A stretch of 41,935 bases of DNA, from assembly GCA_037382465.1 (NCBI GenBank), contig JARRPX010000011.1, forward strand, positions 1 to 41,935. The letters are read 5' to 3'. The first letter of the stretch is position 1. Each line of letters opens with the position of its first letter. The notes beneath the pieces are model-generated. The model was not told where the DNA came from, did no database searches, and saw only the letters and a list, made by a program, of their open reading frames with translations. Below are positions 36,148 through 41,935 of the stretch, one piece after another. The translations under genes were made by a program, and so were the position numbers. Source of the stretch: Anaerolineales bacterium (GTDB lineage: Bacteria > Chloroflexota > Anaerolineae > Anaerolineales > E44-bin32).

Positions 36148-36284
36148 CCCAACTGGAACGTCAGAGCTCACAATCTCGCTTCTTCCGGTTCCGAAAGACG
36201 CAGCACAGCGTACAACCCTGTCCTCTGCGGGACGTATAGATGATGGAACGAAACATTTCTAGAAGAGTTTTCGTGGAGGCTACC

Positions 36285-37172
36285 ATGCGGAAAACCGCAT
36301 TTCTACTCGTTGGAATCACGGCATCGCTGGCGACGCTGGCCTGTAGTTTCAACTTTTTACCGCTGCGCACCAGCATACGGATGGATAAACTCGAGACCGG
36401 TCCGACGGTTGCCGAAGAGGTGGAAATTCCCGTACCCGATGCGGAGGTCAAGACCAGTCTCGAGATCCTCATGGGCGCCGGCGAATTGTACGTTCGCCCG
36501 GGAGCCGAGAATGCACTTCTCCAGGGCACGGTCAGCTACAACGTCGAAGAGTTCGCCCCACACATCATCACTGAATACGGATATATCCAGCTGCGGCAGG
36601 GAGAAGAAGAATCGGGTGAATACACTTTCCCCGATATCAGCGGAGACGTGGAAAACACCTGGGATTTACGTTTGGGGGACGAAGCAATGGAATTGATCCT
36701 CACCGTTGGCGCCTCGCGCAGCGATATCGAACTGGGCGGTCTGGCCATCAACGATCTGCGTGTGACGCAGGGGGCATCCGACTTCGAGCTGTCCTTTTCG
36801 GAAGCGAACAGGATTGAAATGTCCACCTTGCGCTTCACGGGCGGCGCTTCGGATGCGGAACTGAACGGGTTGGCCAACGCAAATGCCCGGGATATTTTCT
36901 TCACCGGCGGCGCTGGCCGCTATACGTTAGATTTCAGCGGTGATTTACAGGACGACATGTACGTGAAGATCGAAGCGGGTCTGGGAGAGGTGATCATCAT
37001 CGTCCCTGAGGGAATCGCTGGGAGAATCGAATTCGAGGGTGCCCTGGCGGATGTCGATGCGTATGATGATTGGCACCGCTCCGGAGACACGTATACGCTC
37101 GAAGGAACGGGCGCCAGGATCACCTTCGAGATCTCCATGGGTCTTGGCAGTCTGCAGCTGCGCAACTGGTGA
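36285..37172 (+). CDS. Toast-rack / LiaF-like surface lipoprotein
   Basis: A 295-residue exported lipoprotein. The signal peptide ends at C20 (ATLAC). The mature part is rich in beta strands with repeated glycine turns (MGAGELYVRPG, VTQGASDFELSF, FTGGASDAEL, FTGGAGRYTLDFSG), the pattern of toast-rack (DUF2154) and LiaF C-terminal-type beta solenoids. These are often part of envelope-stress sensing, but no LiaSR pair is adjacent. The ATG at 36285 has GGAGG 6 nt upstream; an extension to 36240 would spoil the signal peptide. A terminator follows. Confidence 0.8.
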   Translation: MRKTAFLLVGITASLATLACSFNFLPLRTSIRMDKLETGPTVAEEVEIPVPDAEVKTSLEILMGAGELYVRPGAENALLQGTVSYNVEEFAPHIITEYGYIQLRQGEEESGEYTFPDISGDVENTWDLRLGDEAMELILTVGASRSDIELGGLAINDLRVTQGASDFELSFSEANRIEMSTLRFTGGASDAELNGLANANARDIFFTGGAGRYTLDFSGDLQDDMYVKIEAGLGEVIIIVPEGIAGRIEFEGALADVDAYDDWHRSGDTYTLEGTGARITFEISMGLGSLQLRNW

Positions 37173-37247: not shown

Positions 37248-38831
37248 TCAGGGTAACGCAGCGCCCTTCGTCTCGCTGTATATCATGGATAGAATCTCGT
37301 CCGCTTCTTCCGCGGTGGCCAACCTGGGACGGCCTTCGTCCGTCAGCATCATAGGCACGACTTCGATTTCCCGCACGCCGCCTGAATCCAGCCAAACATT
37401 GAGTAATGCGGTTTGGTAAATGTCTCCGTCGTCGAAGACGAAGTTGCCCAATCCGTACACGATCACACCCTGATTGTAAAATTCAATCCCCTGCAGGACG
37501 TGCGCGTGATGGCCCAGAACGAGATCGGCGCCGGCGTCGATCGCCGTGTGGGCGGCAGTCACCTGCGGTAGGCTGGGCTGGACCACGTATTCGTAACCGC
37601 TGTGCAGCAGTACGACAACGATGTCGGCGAGCGGCCGCACGGCGGCGATGTCCGCCCGCATCTGCTCGGGATCGGCCCAGGACACGCCGGGCTGATTCTG
37701 CGTGGCCGTCCAGGAACGTGCGTCAAAACCGCGCACCTCGACCGGTACGTCTACGTAGGACAGAAATGCGATGTTCGTTCCGTTCGCGGTCAGGATGACC
37801 GGTGCAGCGGCGGCAGCCGCATCTTCCCCCGCGCCCACGGATTGGACGTGGTTTTTCTCCAGCAGAGAGATTGCGTCCAGTAGCGCTTCGGGACCATAGT
37901 CCATGGCGTGGTTGTTTGCCAGCGAAAGCAGGTCGAAGCCCGCGATGGCGAACGACCGTGCGGCTTCCGCAGGGGCGCGGAACGTGTAGCCCTTGTCGAC
38001 CGGCGCACCCTGCTCCCCCATGGCACATTCGAGATTCCCTACGGTGACGTCCGCCGTGGAGAGAAAATCGAAAACCAGTTCGAACGGAAAGATCGGATTG
38101 CCGTTCGCAATTCTCTCGCCGATGCGCCTGTCCAGCATGACGTCGCCCACGGCAACCAGGTGCGTGGCCGCATCGAATCCAAGGCGGCCGGCGATCAACG
38201 ATCCGATCTCCGCAGCCTCCGCTTCGAAGCCCTGCACCGAGATCACGCTCCATCTCTGTCTCAGTGGATATTCAGCATCACCGGGATGTGCGCCATCGAC
38301 CGTCAGCGATTTGAGTTTTGGGGTCATGTCCACCCAATCCAGGACCGCAACGAACGGAGAAGGTTCTAGGCGCATTTCCTGCGCCTGCTCCAGGGAGACA
38401 TCTTCCCACGCCGAGGTGAACGGGACCGCCAGGGCCAGAACACGTTCGCCTGCGGGCACACCTTCATCGCCGGGGACGAGCGCCAGATCGGTAACGCCTC
38501 GATCCAGCCACTGGCCAGGGTCGTCGTCCACCATGAGCTGCCACCTGTCTGGTGAATCCAATGCGGCAATCGCCTGCTCGGCCAGACCGGCCCAACGCTC
38601 CGGAACGACCATCCGGACCGGTTCGGGACTCGGCGTGATCGTGAAGGTCGATGTTGGGGAGGAGATTGCCTGCGCAAACGGCTCTGTCGCCGCTGCGAGT
38701 GTACTCGAAGGAAATGGGTCCGGCGTTGAACCGCCCGCAACCTTCGCCGCACATGCGTTGACGAACGCGCCAAGCAGGACGGCCAGCAAGAGCGCGCGCA
38801 GATACGTTGGAAGTTTGATCGTTCGCAACAT
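37248..38831 (-). CDS. CapA-family metallophosphatase-like lipoprotein with binding-protein-like N-terminal domain
   Basis: A 527-residue lipoprotein (C27 in FVNAC). Residues about 222-490 are a CapA/PgsA-type calcineurin-like domain: VGDVMLDRR (D230), NLECAM (N266, E268), LANNHAMDYG (N306-H308), LLHSGYEY and GHHAHVLQG (H441, H442, H444). CapA proteins are linked to poly-gamma-glutamate or other capsule synthesis, but many copies have other roles. Residues about 70-215 look like a periplasmic binding-protein half (VPFTSAWEDVSLEQAQ), an uncommon addition. The ATG follows a TACAAT box by 8 nt, so the mRNA is probably leaderless. Confidence 0.83.
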   Translation of the reverse strand: MLRTIKLPTYLRALLLAVLLGAFVNACAAKVAGGSTPDPFPSSTLAAATEPFAQAISSPTSTFTITPSPEPVRMVVPERWAGLAEQAIAALDSPDRWQLMVDDDPGQWLDRGVTDLALVPGDEGVPAGERVLALAVPFTSAWEDVSLEQAQEMRLEPSPFVAVLDWVDMTPKLKSLTVDGAHPGDAEYPLRQRWSVISVQGFEAEAAEIGSLIAGRLGFDAATHLVAVGDVMLDRRIGERIANGNPIFPFELVFDFLSTADVTVGNLECAMGEQGAPVDKGYTFRAPAEAARSFAIAGFDLLSLANNHAMDYGPEALLDAISLLEKNHVQSVGAGEDAAAAAAPVILTANGTNIAFLSYVDVPVEVRGFDARSWTATQNQPGVSWADPEQMRADIAAVRPLADIVVVLLHSGYEYVVQPSLPQVTAAHTAIDAGADLVLGHHAHVLQGIEFYNQGVIVYGLGNFVFDDGDIYQTALLNVWLDSGGVREIEVVPMMLTDEGRPRLATAEEADEILSMIYSETKGAALP

Positions 38832-38961: not shown

Positions 38962-40290
38962 TTATTGAGAGAACGTCAGAGGAGCGAGTTCTTCCTCGAT
39001 CATGCGAACCACCAATTCGTCGAGCGAGAGCACGCTGTAATCATCGACGTGATGGGTCGTGTCGTCTCCGGGCGCCCCGCCGGCGCCGTAGGTGAGGAAG
39101 AGGAATTTGCCGCTGCTGATCTGGGCCAACTGGCGGAAAACATATTCGCCCTGATCGTCCAAACCGCTGGACGCCAGCGGATAGATCTTGATCCCCATTT
39201 CGGCCGCGGCGAAGACGTCCGCCGCGTAGTCGTAATCCTGGGCGTAATCGAGATGGGGCGGTGCATCGGCCAGGAGAAAGATCAAACTGACCGTGGCCTC
39301 GCCGCGCCACTCCGGCAGGTGAATGGCGTTGTGCAATCCCTCGTTGAGGCTTTCCGGATAATCTCCACCACCGTCGGCCCGGACCCGGGCAAGCTCTTCG
39401 GTGAAAGCCGCCACGTCGGGCGTGAAGTCAAACGTGCGGCTGACAAACAGGTCCCCTCGATCGCGGTAGATGGTCATCCCAAAACGCACGTTGGGATTCG
39501 ACGGCAGTGCTTCGATCTGCTCGGAAACGGCGATCATGTTTTCCTTCAACTGTGCAATCTCGTCACTCATACTGCCTGTGGCATCAATCAGGAAGTGCAC
39601 GTCGAGGCGTAGCGGCTGCGTGGACGATTCGGCGTCGAGCGTGACGGCGTGTTCCAGGTCTTCCCGGTCCATGACTTGGGAAACTTCCCGGCCATCTTTG
39701 GCCACAACGATCTCCAGTTTTTCGAGATCGGACTCCGGGTAAGCGTTGGGAAAGAACAACACGCTTCCGTCGCTGTGAGTCGTGAGCCGGGCGAGGCGGT
39801 CGCCATTCTCGTCGAGGACGGTCACTTCCGCCCCAAGCACGGGCTGCCCTTGCGCGTTGGAGACGGTAATGGTGTGTCGACCGGTGACATCGACATCGTG
39901 GACGTCGATCCCCCACTCCGTAAAACGCAGTCGATAGAGCAGGTAGTCGTCCCATTCGGCGTTGTCATCCACACTGCCCGCCCGCAGGTTCGGCGCCTGG
40001 CTGCCGCTGGCAGGTTCACTTTCCAGCTTAACCGCACCAACGGCGGCTTCTTCCAGCTCGACCGGCGGTTCAGCGGCGGGAAGTTCGGCGAAGGAATCTG
40101 CCCCGGCAGCCACACCTTCGGCAGCCGGCTCAGCCGAATCGCTCCATCCTGCTTCCCCGTCCCAGTCGATCCATCCCCCGCCCTCTTTTCCGCTCGACCC
40201 AACGAGTGGGTCCATCACGCTGCAAGCCCCGAGGCCAAGGGTGAGGATCATCAGGATGTACGTCCAACGTATATCGGCTTTGTTCTTCAT
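38962..40290 (-). CDS. VWA-domain surface lipoprotein
   Basis: A 442-residue lipoprotein (lipobox GLGAC, C23). An acidic Ala/Glu-rich low-complexity spacer (about 40-110) leads to a carboxypeptidase-regulatory-like beta domain (about 135-200, GQPVLGAEVTVLDENGDRL). A von Willebrand A domain follows (about 228-435) with the metal-ion-dependent adhesion motif DATGS (236-240). Such domains bind protein partners or surfaces through a divalent cation. GGAGAGGAG lies before the ATG. It is in line with the CapA-like gene and the sortase fusion gene on the same strand, with hairpins between. Confidence 0.87.
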   Translation of the reverse strand: MKNKADIRWTYILMILTLGLGACSVMDPLVGSSGKEGGGWIDWDGEAGWSDSAEPAAEGVAAGADSFAELPAAEPPVELEEAAVGAVKLESEPASGSQAPNLRAGSVDDNAEWDDYLLYRLRFTEWGIDVHDVDVTGRHTITVSNAQGQPVLGAEVTVLDENGDRLARLTTHSDGSVLFFPNAYPESDLEKLEIVVAKDGREVSQVMDREDLEHAVTLDAESSTQPLRLDVHFLIDATGSMSDEIAQLKENMIAVSEQIEALPSNPNVRFGMTIYRDRGDLFVSRTFDFTPDVAAFTEELARVRADGGGDYPESLNEGLHNAIHLPEWRGEATVSLIFLLADAPPHLDYAQDYDYAADVFAAAEMGIKIYPLASSGLDDQGEYVFRQLAQISSGKFLFLTYGAGGAPGDDTTHHVDDYSVLSLDELVVRMIEEELAPLTFSQ

Positions 40291-40441: not shown

Positions 40442-41935
40442 TTAAGGTTGGGGTTCCACGCTGACCAGAACGGCCCGCACGACGGTGCGCCAACGGTAGG
40501 TTCCGCTTTGCTCGTCGAAACCGCCGCAGGTGATCAAGGTGACCCAATCCAGATCTTCGTGGCCGAGTGACGACGTGTCCTCGGGGTGGACCCAGCTCAC
40601 TTCACGCACGGAATAAACGTAGCGCATACCAAAGAAATGGATGACGACCTCGTCTCCCCAGGAGAGGCGGCCGAGATTTGCAAACGGTCCGGGCAATCCG
40701 GAGGGCAGCGTCACGTGGCCGGTGATGGCGGTGTTGCCCTGCCAGGTTGGGAATGCCGTTCCTTGAAGATAGCCGGCGTCGCCCCACAACCAGCTTACGT
40801 CCCACCCGCTCTCGGTCTTCGGGACGCCAACGATGGGGATGTCGACGTCTAATTTTGGAATTTCGAGTCCGAGCGTAAAGTAACTCTTGTACCGTTCGCT
40901 CTGCGACTGCGCGGGCAGCGAAGTCACCACGCCGGGTGCAAAGCCCGTTTCCGGCAGTCCCCCTGGTTCGAAGATGTTCAGGAAGAAATCATCGTCGTTG
41001 TTGGTCAGATCTTCGTCCAACGAGGAAGTCGTCAAACCGACGCTGTTGGTGCCGCCCGGAGGTTCGCCCAAAGCGTTCACTTGGGTGGTGACGGTGATGG
41101 TGTAGAAATCGGTGGACGACACGGTGCCCATGTCGATCGTGACCGTGTTGCCGGCGATGGTGACGGGTTGTCCCTCGTCCGGCACTATCGTCACGCCGAT
41201 GACGTCCAGGAAGACGGGCAGGGTGTCGACGACTTCCACATCGAGCGCATCTGTGTTGCCCTCGTTTTCCACCGTAATGGTGAAGACCACGATGTCACCC
41301 ACGGAAGCCGTAGCCGGATCGCCGGTCTTGGTCAGCGCGGGGTCGATAATCGTGGCCACCGTGACGCTGGCGTCGTCCTCGTCGTCCTCCGATTGATCGC
41401 CGTCATCGTTGTCTGGTGTGGAATCGGGATCGTAGAGACCGCTGGCGATCACCTGGGCGACGTTGGTGGAAGTGCCAACGACATCGACGGTGGCCTGGAA
41501 GGTGAGGATGGCGCTCGTGCCACTCGCCAGGGAATTTACGTCCCAGGTCAATACCGGAACGGCAGAGTCGTCGTTGCTATCACCACCGGTGATACTGCTC
41601 GGAACGTACGTCAAGCCGGCCGGTATGACGTCTTCGACAACGATGTTGGTGGCCGTGTCCGGACCCGAGTTGTTCAGCGTAAGGGTGAAAATGACCGTGT
41701 CGCCGAGATCGGGCGAGGTGTCGTTGACGATCTTGACCAGGCTGAGATCCGCGGACGGCAGCTGGTAGCCGAAGTCCGAGTCGTTGTAGTCTTCCCCGGC
41801 GGTCAATCCGGTGACAGCATCGGGGTCCGTGCCGCCGGTCAAGACGTAGCCGGTGAGCACCCCGCCGGTGTCGGTCACGTCGACGATGTAGTCCCCGGCG
41901 GACAATCCGCTGAAGTCGTACGCACCGCCGCCTGC
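40442..41935 (-). CDS. SdrD-B/DUF11 surface protein with internal LPETG motif and C-terminal sortase domain (5' end missing)
   Basis: The frame is open to the right window edge, so the N-terminus and signal peptide are not seen; 497 residues are visible. Numbering from the leucine codon at 41905: an SdrD-B-like fragment (up to about 50), two DUF11-type adhesive repeats (about 51-185 and 186-310), then LPETG at 317-321 (40943-40957), a linker of about 25 residues, and a sortase domain (about 347-480). Sortase residues H397 (ITGHVT), C460 (TLITC) and R473 line up with the His-Cys-Arg triad of SrtA. No transmembrane segment or basic tail follows the LPETG or the sortase. A stand-alone sortase or its substrate would normally be separate proteins. 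Confidence 0.88.
   Translation of the reverse strand, partial: AGGGAYDFSGLSAGDYIVDVTDTGGVLTGYVLTGGTDPDAVTGLTAGEDYNDSDFGYQLPSADLSLVKIVNDTSPDLGDTVIFTLTLNNSGPDTATNIVVEDVIPAGLTYVPSSITGGDSNDDSAVPVLTWDVNSLASGTSAILTFQATVDVVGTSTNVAQVIASGLYDPDSTPDNDDGDQSEDDEDDASVTVATIIDPALTKTGDPATASVGDIVVFTITVENEGNTDALDVEVVDTLPVFLDVIGVTIVPDEGQPVTIAGNTVTIDMGTVSSTDFYTITVTTQVNALGEPPGGTNSVGLTTSSLDEDLTNNDDDFFLNIFEPGGLPETGFAPGVVTSLPAQSQSERYKSYFTLGLEIPKLDVDIPIVGVPKTESGWDVSWLWGDAGYLQGTAFPTWQGNTAITGHVTLPSGLPGPFANLGRLSWGDEVVIHFFGMRYVYSVREVSWVHPEDTSSLGHEDLDWVTLITCGGFDEQSGTYRWRTVVRAVLVSVEPQP

Follow-up and report, generated by a model that had tools for sequence, protein, structure and literature searches.

A sorting motif joined to a sortase domain in a conserved C-terminal module of exported proteins from Anaerolineales

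One clade appears to have joined a sortase and a sorting motif into a single C-terminal module and to use it in place of the helix-and-tail signal of classical surface proteins, so that many large surface proteins of Anaerolineales seem to bring along their own cutting and anchoring enzyme. Sortases are usually viewed as separate membrane enzymes that serve many substrates. We lean towards the reading that the module sorts itself: the motif would be both lid and substrate, it would be cut in cis at the Thr-Gly bond, and the sortase would then be shed.

The window analysed here is the entire contig C11 of a draft genome (G000) of Anaerolineales, 41,935 bp in length. An open reading frame of 497 amino acids (40442..41935, minus strand, as for all parts of the protein below) encodes a DUF11-LPETG-sortase protein, the 5′ end of which is cut by the contig end. 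The first DUF11 repeat (41405..41749; residues 63-177) was recognized by Pfam at 93.8 bits, and the second (40988..41338) overlaps the isopeptide-forming fimbrial domain model TIGR04226. Directly after a GG pair comes the LPETG sorting motif (L327-G331 of 497; 40943..40957). It is followed by FAPG (40931..40942), by the linker VVTSLPAQSQSERYKSYFTLGL (40865..40930), which has about 20 residues, and by a sortase domain (PF04203; 40463..40867; residues 357-491, E 1e-20) with the catalytic residues His407 (40715..40717), Cys470 (40526..40528) and Arg483 (40487..40489). The protein ends about 28 residues beyond the Cys, and no membrane helix or hydrophobic segment was seen past the sortase. Thus, frame translation and Pfam bear out the original prediction, which described LPETG, FAPG, a short linker and a sortase with an intact His-Cys-Arg triad, placed where a classical signal has its helix and basic tail. 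That prediction named the same triad residues but numbered them H397, C460 and R473, counting from a TTG codon at 41905; in the 497-residue frame they are H407, C470 and R483. Three neighbouring genes have no obvious link to sortases: a secreted or lipoprotein-like von Willebrand A protein (38962-40290, minus strand), a PGA_cap (CapA-like) protein (37248-38831, minus strand) and a toast_rack-like protein (36240-37172, plus strand).

The TTG codon at 41905 does not hold as the start of the protein. Because the window is a whole contig, the N-terminus has been cut by the assembly at the contig end. Contig C49 of the same genome carries an open frame of 1,344 residues that runs off the contig end; positions 1-127 of C49 overlap the window end (41935), with 7 mismatches over these 127 bp, and the overlap falls within an SdrD-B-like repeat. 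Furthermore, over about 950-990 amino acids the C49 frame shares 54-56% identity with the N-terminal regions of L082 and L092, which are two other LPxTG-sortase proteins. On these grounds, the missing N-terminal part of the window protein is probably on C49, as one gene broken by the assembly. The 7 mismatches may instead reflect a repeat or a strain difference.

The motif is strictly conserved. In an alignment of 81 relatives, which are about 40-60% identical to the window protein, P, T, G and F of [L/I/M]PxTGF are invariant in all 81, and the first position is only L, M or I. Position x is a free site (2.99 bits of entropy) and the residues upstream of the motif vary freely. Beyond the F, the A and P of FAPG are more than 90% conserved, and the linker keeps its length and a consensus, VTxLPxQPxxxxY. 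The distance to the enzyme is also fixed: [L/M/I]PxTG lies 139-144 residues upstream of the catalytic Thr-Cys in 82 of 82 scored sortases (four further rows scored as having no motif were second, spurious domain matches in the same proteins). As a background, the upstream parts of these proteins contain 15 [LIM]PxTG in 117,957 residues, or about 0.006 per 45-residue segment. Because 81 of 81 relatives keep the motif at a fixed spacing, its occurrence by chance is ruled out. Divergent paralogues in genome G176 retain IPQTGF and IPDTGY. In one further protein (L113:8357-10513), the motif before the sortase is accompanied by an additional LPLTGF, which lies about 57 residues from the N-terminal end.

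The His, Cys and Arg of the triad are likewise invariant in the 81 sequences. This rules out a dead sortase that serves merely as an anchor domain, and the fused sortase is apparently active. The original prediction was to be given up if relatives with the same fusion had lost the LPETG; they keep it without exception, at a fixed spacing, next to an intact triad and within one clade.

We then consider the distribution of the module. In a search of 201 Chloroflexota genomes with the C-terminal part, the strong matches were C-terminal in frames of 500-3,628 amino acids whose parts follow in the same order as in the window protein. In a profile search of 400 genomes, 32 genomes had a match with an E value of 1e-30 or lower, and 28 of these belong to the window's own taxonomic order. 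In a scan of GTDB with one genome per species, seeded with a sortase peptide and not with the motif, 79 loci were obtained; nearly all were labelled Anaerolineales, Anaerolineaceae, Anaerolineae or Chloroflexi, and they include Leptolinea tardivitalis YMTK-2 and Leptolinea sp. HRD-7. One contig with an Anaerolineales-type fusion (L080) is labelled Acidithiobacillus ferrivorans (MAG), probably through a binning error. Among viral contigs, 142 pattern matches included no confirmed relative. Among plasmids, there was a single fused relative that has the motif, and it lies on a Chloroflexota plasmid; the remaining plasmid matches had less than 60% identity, and most of those listed carry the annotation of a class C sortase. 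The fused gene in question (L267; LPQTGF; plasmid plas-ZRK, CP069395, 180 kb) adjoins a heliorhodopsin gene, and its product is annotated only as a "DUF11 domain-containing protein" in the record.

The motif is absent from 30 Chloroflexota sortases outside the clade, several of which are inside longer frames. Therefore, the idea that any sortase fusion carries the motif is ruled out: L196-L205 are Chloroflexota sortases in longer frames that lack it. Five of these (L198, L199, L200, L201 and L205) have the sortase in the middle of a frame of 412-720 amino acids, after a Thr/Pro-rich stretch and without LPxTG, and represent a different fusion type. In a tree of the sortase core, from which the motif columns were removed, all motif carriers fall on one side of a single branch (SH-aLRT 89; this was a quick tree with several long branches), so that one change of the motif trait is required. 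The sequences thus place the origin of the motif-sortase module in one clade. Two close relatives, L260 (169 amino acids, apparently truncated) and L261 (203 amino acids), are unfused and both lack the motif. They are consistent, if weakly, with the motif and the fusion going together; the evidence is weak because both may be decayed copies.

The upstream partners of the module are unrelated to each other. According to Pfam, they comprise DUF11, FG-GAP, several bacterial Ig-like domains, beta-propellers and a Ser/Thr kinase. Most complete frames begin with one signal-peptide-like segment, and no helix follows the sortase in any complete fused frame examined. Taken together, this is how a C-terminal sorting signal looks that is portable between proteins. 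The original prediction called the upstream part adhesive; this suits the DUF11 repeats of the window protein, but the module is used more broadly, behind unrelated proteins, one of which is a membrane Ser/Thr kinase. In the latter (L052:1549-3939, from G176), a Ser/Thr protein kinase recognized by Pfam is followed by a hydrophobic helix, after which come a stalk of extracellular type, LPRTGFAPG and the sortase. This protein is possibly a receptor kinase, the outer part of which could be covalently anchored. A second kinase-like reading frame lies directly downstream of it.

Classical substrates also exist in the order. Five genomes, including that of the window, each encode one small protein with LPxTGF, a membrane helix and a basic tail (L137/L211:1688-2254 on contig C15 of the window's genome; L146, L167, L169 and L170). 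It is built of an N-terminal cytoplasmic part, a helix, a Thr/Ala-rich stalk, LP(N/V)TGF, a second helix and the basic tail, and is apparently the sole classical LPxTGF substrate of those five genomes. These signals were counted by an LPxTGF DNA pattern together with reading frames. The model TIGR01167 was rejected as a counter: it was too unspecific, with matches (E up to 1) in every one of the 14 control genomes. Because F follows LPxTG in both the fused and the classical layouts, the sequences suggest one recognition rule common to both.

The window's genome also encodes a separate membrane-bound sortase on contig C106. Together with the LPxTGF of the canonical signal in the same genome, this raises the idea that the motif is cut in trans, by another copy or by the C106 sortase, while the attached sortase serves other substrates. 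However, the fused chain lacks a membrane helix and a basic tail that could keep it in place for a membrane sortase, and the strict spacing between the motif and the attached sortase would be left without explanation. We therefore regard cutting in trans as improbable.

Structure models put the motif in the lid position of class C sortases. AlphaFold2 models of the window protein (mean pLDDT 93.6) and the L. tardivitalis protein (mean pLDDT 91.5) both form a sortase barrel. In both, the motif and the linker are modelled as an ordered coil ahead of the first strand, and the linker has no long secondary structure. The block means of pLDDT for residues 11-40 were 86, 97 and 90 in the window model, and 74, 94 and 94 in the corresponding blocks of the L. 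tardivitalis model. This high modelled confidence, by which the segment after the motif appears as part of the domain, would suit an ancestral sorting signal that was absorbed into the sortase fold and has no catalytic meaning. Such a leftover is very hard to credit, because x is free but P, T, G and F are constant in 81 sequences, a pattern that speaks for substrate recognition more than for packing.

For most class A and E sortases, the alignment with the models starts only at model residue 33-40; for class C sortases, it starts at model residue 4-13. Class C (pilus) sortases carry a DP(W/F/Y) lid. Model residue 11 corresponds to residue 54 of 2w1j, residue 80 of 3o0p and residue 45 of 3tbe, and in the second model residue 13 corresponds to residue 56 of 2w1j. 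The published lid residues are D58-P59-W60 in S. pneumoniae SrtC1 and K48-D49-P50-Y51-S52 in S. agalactiae SrtC1; the class C lid occupies the active-site groove, and Asp49 of the lid forms a pair with the catalytic Arg (PMC3166054). Assuming that the structural alignment is ungapped there, L-P of LPETG falls over D-P of the class C lid. In the sequence profile, TGFAP is matched to PGLDPF, the lid region of 24rr. Sequence alignments set either PETG against IPGMG or TGFAP against PGLDP, and these stretches lie at the lid or immediately ahead of it. Thus, the register of the motif against the lid is uncertain between the structural pairing (LP with DP) and these sequence pairings. An Enterococcus durans class C sortase (L266) has an IPGMG seven residues upstream of its DPF lid motif, so that the alignment can pair this IPGMG with LPETG. 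Because the motif overlies the class C lid, which occupies the active-site groove, it is modelled in or beside the active site, and the lid superposition suggests that it may lie within reach of the Cys in the same chain.

The same superposition in both models could mean that LPxTGF is a permanent pseudo-substrate, an autoinhibitory lid that shuts the active site, like the DP(W/F/Y) lid of class C sortases, and is displaced and not cut, while the sortase serves other proteins such as the small protein with LPxTGF, helix and basic tail. Class C sortases are the best solved relatives of the profile, the fixed spacing of the motif suits a lid, and a canonical LPxTGF substrate is present in five genomes. 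Nevertheless, an uncut lid needs neither an invariant Thr-Gly nor the L/I/M-P-any-T-G tolerance, and class C lids read DP(W/F/Y) instead. Moreover, G176 has at least seven fused sortases, divergent ones included, but no classical signal among the LPxTGF pattern hits that were read. We consider a permanent lid unlikely, although it is the strongest competitor of self-sorting.

For self-sorting, we infer cleavage, action in cis and transfer to an amine. After export, the sortase would fold, and C470 would attack the T330-G331 bond of its own chain. A thioester would form between the sortase Cys and the upstream protein, which would then be handed to an amine, either of the cell wall or of a lysine in another surface protein. 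The sortase, now beginning with GFAP, would be the leaving group and would be shed; the cut that releases it would also remove its lid. The tolerance of the motif (L/I/M, P, any residue, T, G, F) resembles the usual pattern of a sortase substrate, including the scissile Gly. The invariance of this Gly favours a motif that is cut, because a mere pseudo-substrate would not need it. Against self-sorting, L052, with its kinase and transmembrane helix, needs no anchoring to the wall, and one enzyme per substrate molecule is costly. The module may further be a natural, portable lid-as-motif device across the Anaerolineales, used even on a receptor-like kinase, in which a single-use enzyme stays closed until an amine arrives and is cut once. 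We put this fuller picture forward tentatively, at slightly less than an even chance.

Finally, we compared the module with known systems. The window protein scored 74.2 bits against PF04203 (cut-off 26.6) and has the triad of a sortase. Its scores stayed below the cut-offs of the class models: 53.1 versus 160 for class C (NF033745), 38.0 versus 165 for class D (NF033746), 34.0 versus 160 for class E (NF033747) and 34.3 versus 166 for class F (NF033748). Class C sortases (S. pneumoniae SrtC-1, 2w1j; S. agalactiae SrtC1, 3tbe and 3rbk) share the fold and the triad. The module differs from them in that the segment over the lid reads a full LPxTGF and not DP(W/F/Y), in its fusion to a large exported protein, and in lacking their C-terminal transmembrane segment. 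With the classical cell-wall sorting signal it shares an LPxTG that lies close to the C-terminus in a variety of exported surface proteins, but the sortase domain takes the place of the helix and basic tail.

The pieces of the module are known; in the open-access papers searched, we found only engineered versions and no description of a natural fusion of this kind in Chloroflexi or Anaerolineae, of its conservation or of its C-terminal use on unrelated proteins. In GBSSrtC1-lidM, the lid KDPYS of a class C sortase was replaced by IPNTG (PMC3166054), so that a sorting motif is likewise placed in a sortase lid. However, that protein is man-made, has no cargo and carries Cys184Ala, whereas the Anaerolineales module is natural and retains the catalytic Cys. 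Because the IPNTG of this construct was disordered and the active site empty, docking of a lid-borne motif cannot be assumed. The engineered self-cleaving fusions have a sortase, LPETG and a partner in one chain, as does the window protein, in which the triad is intact and the reach of the motif is suggested by the lid superposition. Fusions with LPETG between sortase and partner cleave themselves, with release in cis upon activation (PMC4658790), and Mao 2004, as referenced there, concerns a self-cleaving sortase-LPETG fusion. Therefore, cleavage within a fusion is chemically ordinary. These are laboratory constructs of S. aureus SrtA, and the fusion of PMC4658790 is arranged as SrtA-LPETG-target, opposite to the window protein. 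If the Anaerolineales module is cut in cis, it would be the natural counterpart of the self-cleaving sortase fusions used in protein purification and a natural lid-as-substrate sortase, and it would explain how these little-studied bacteria display very large proteins.
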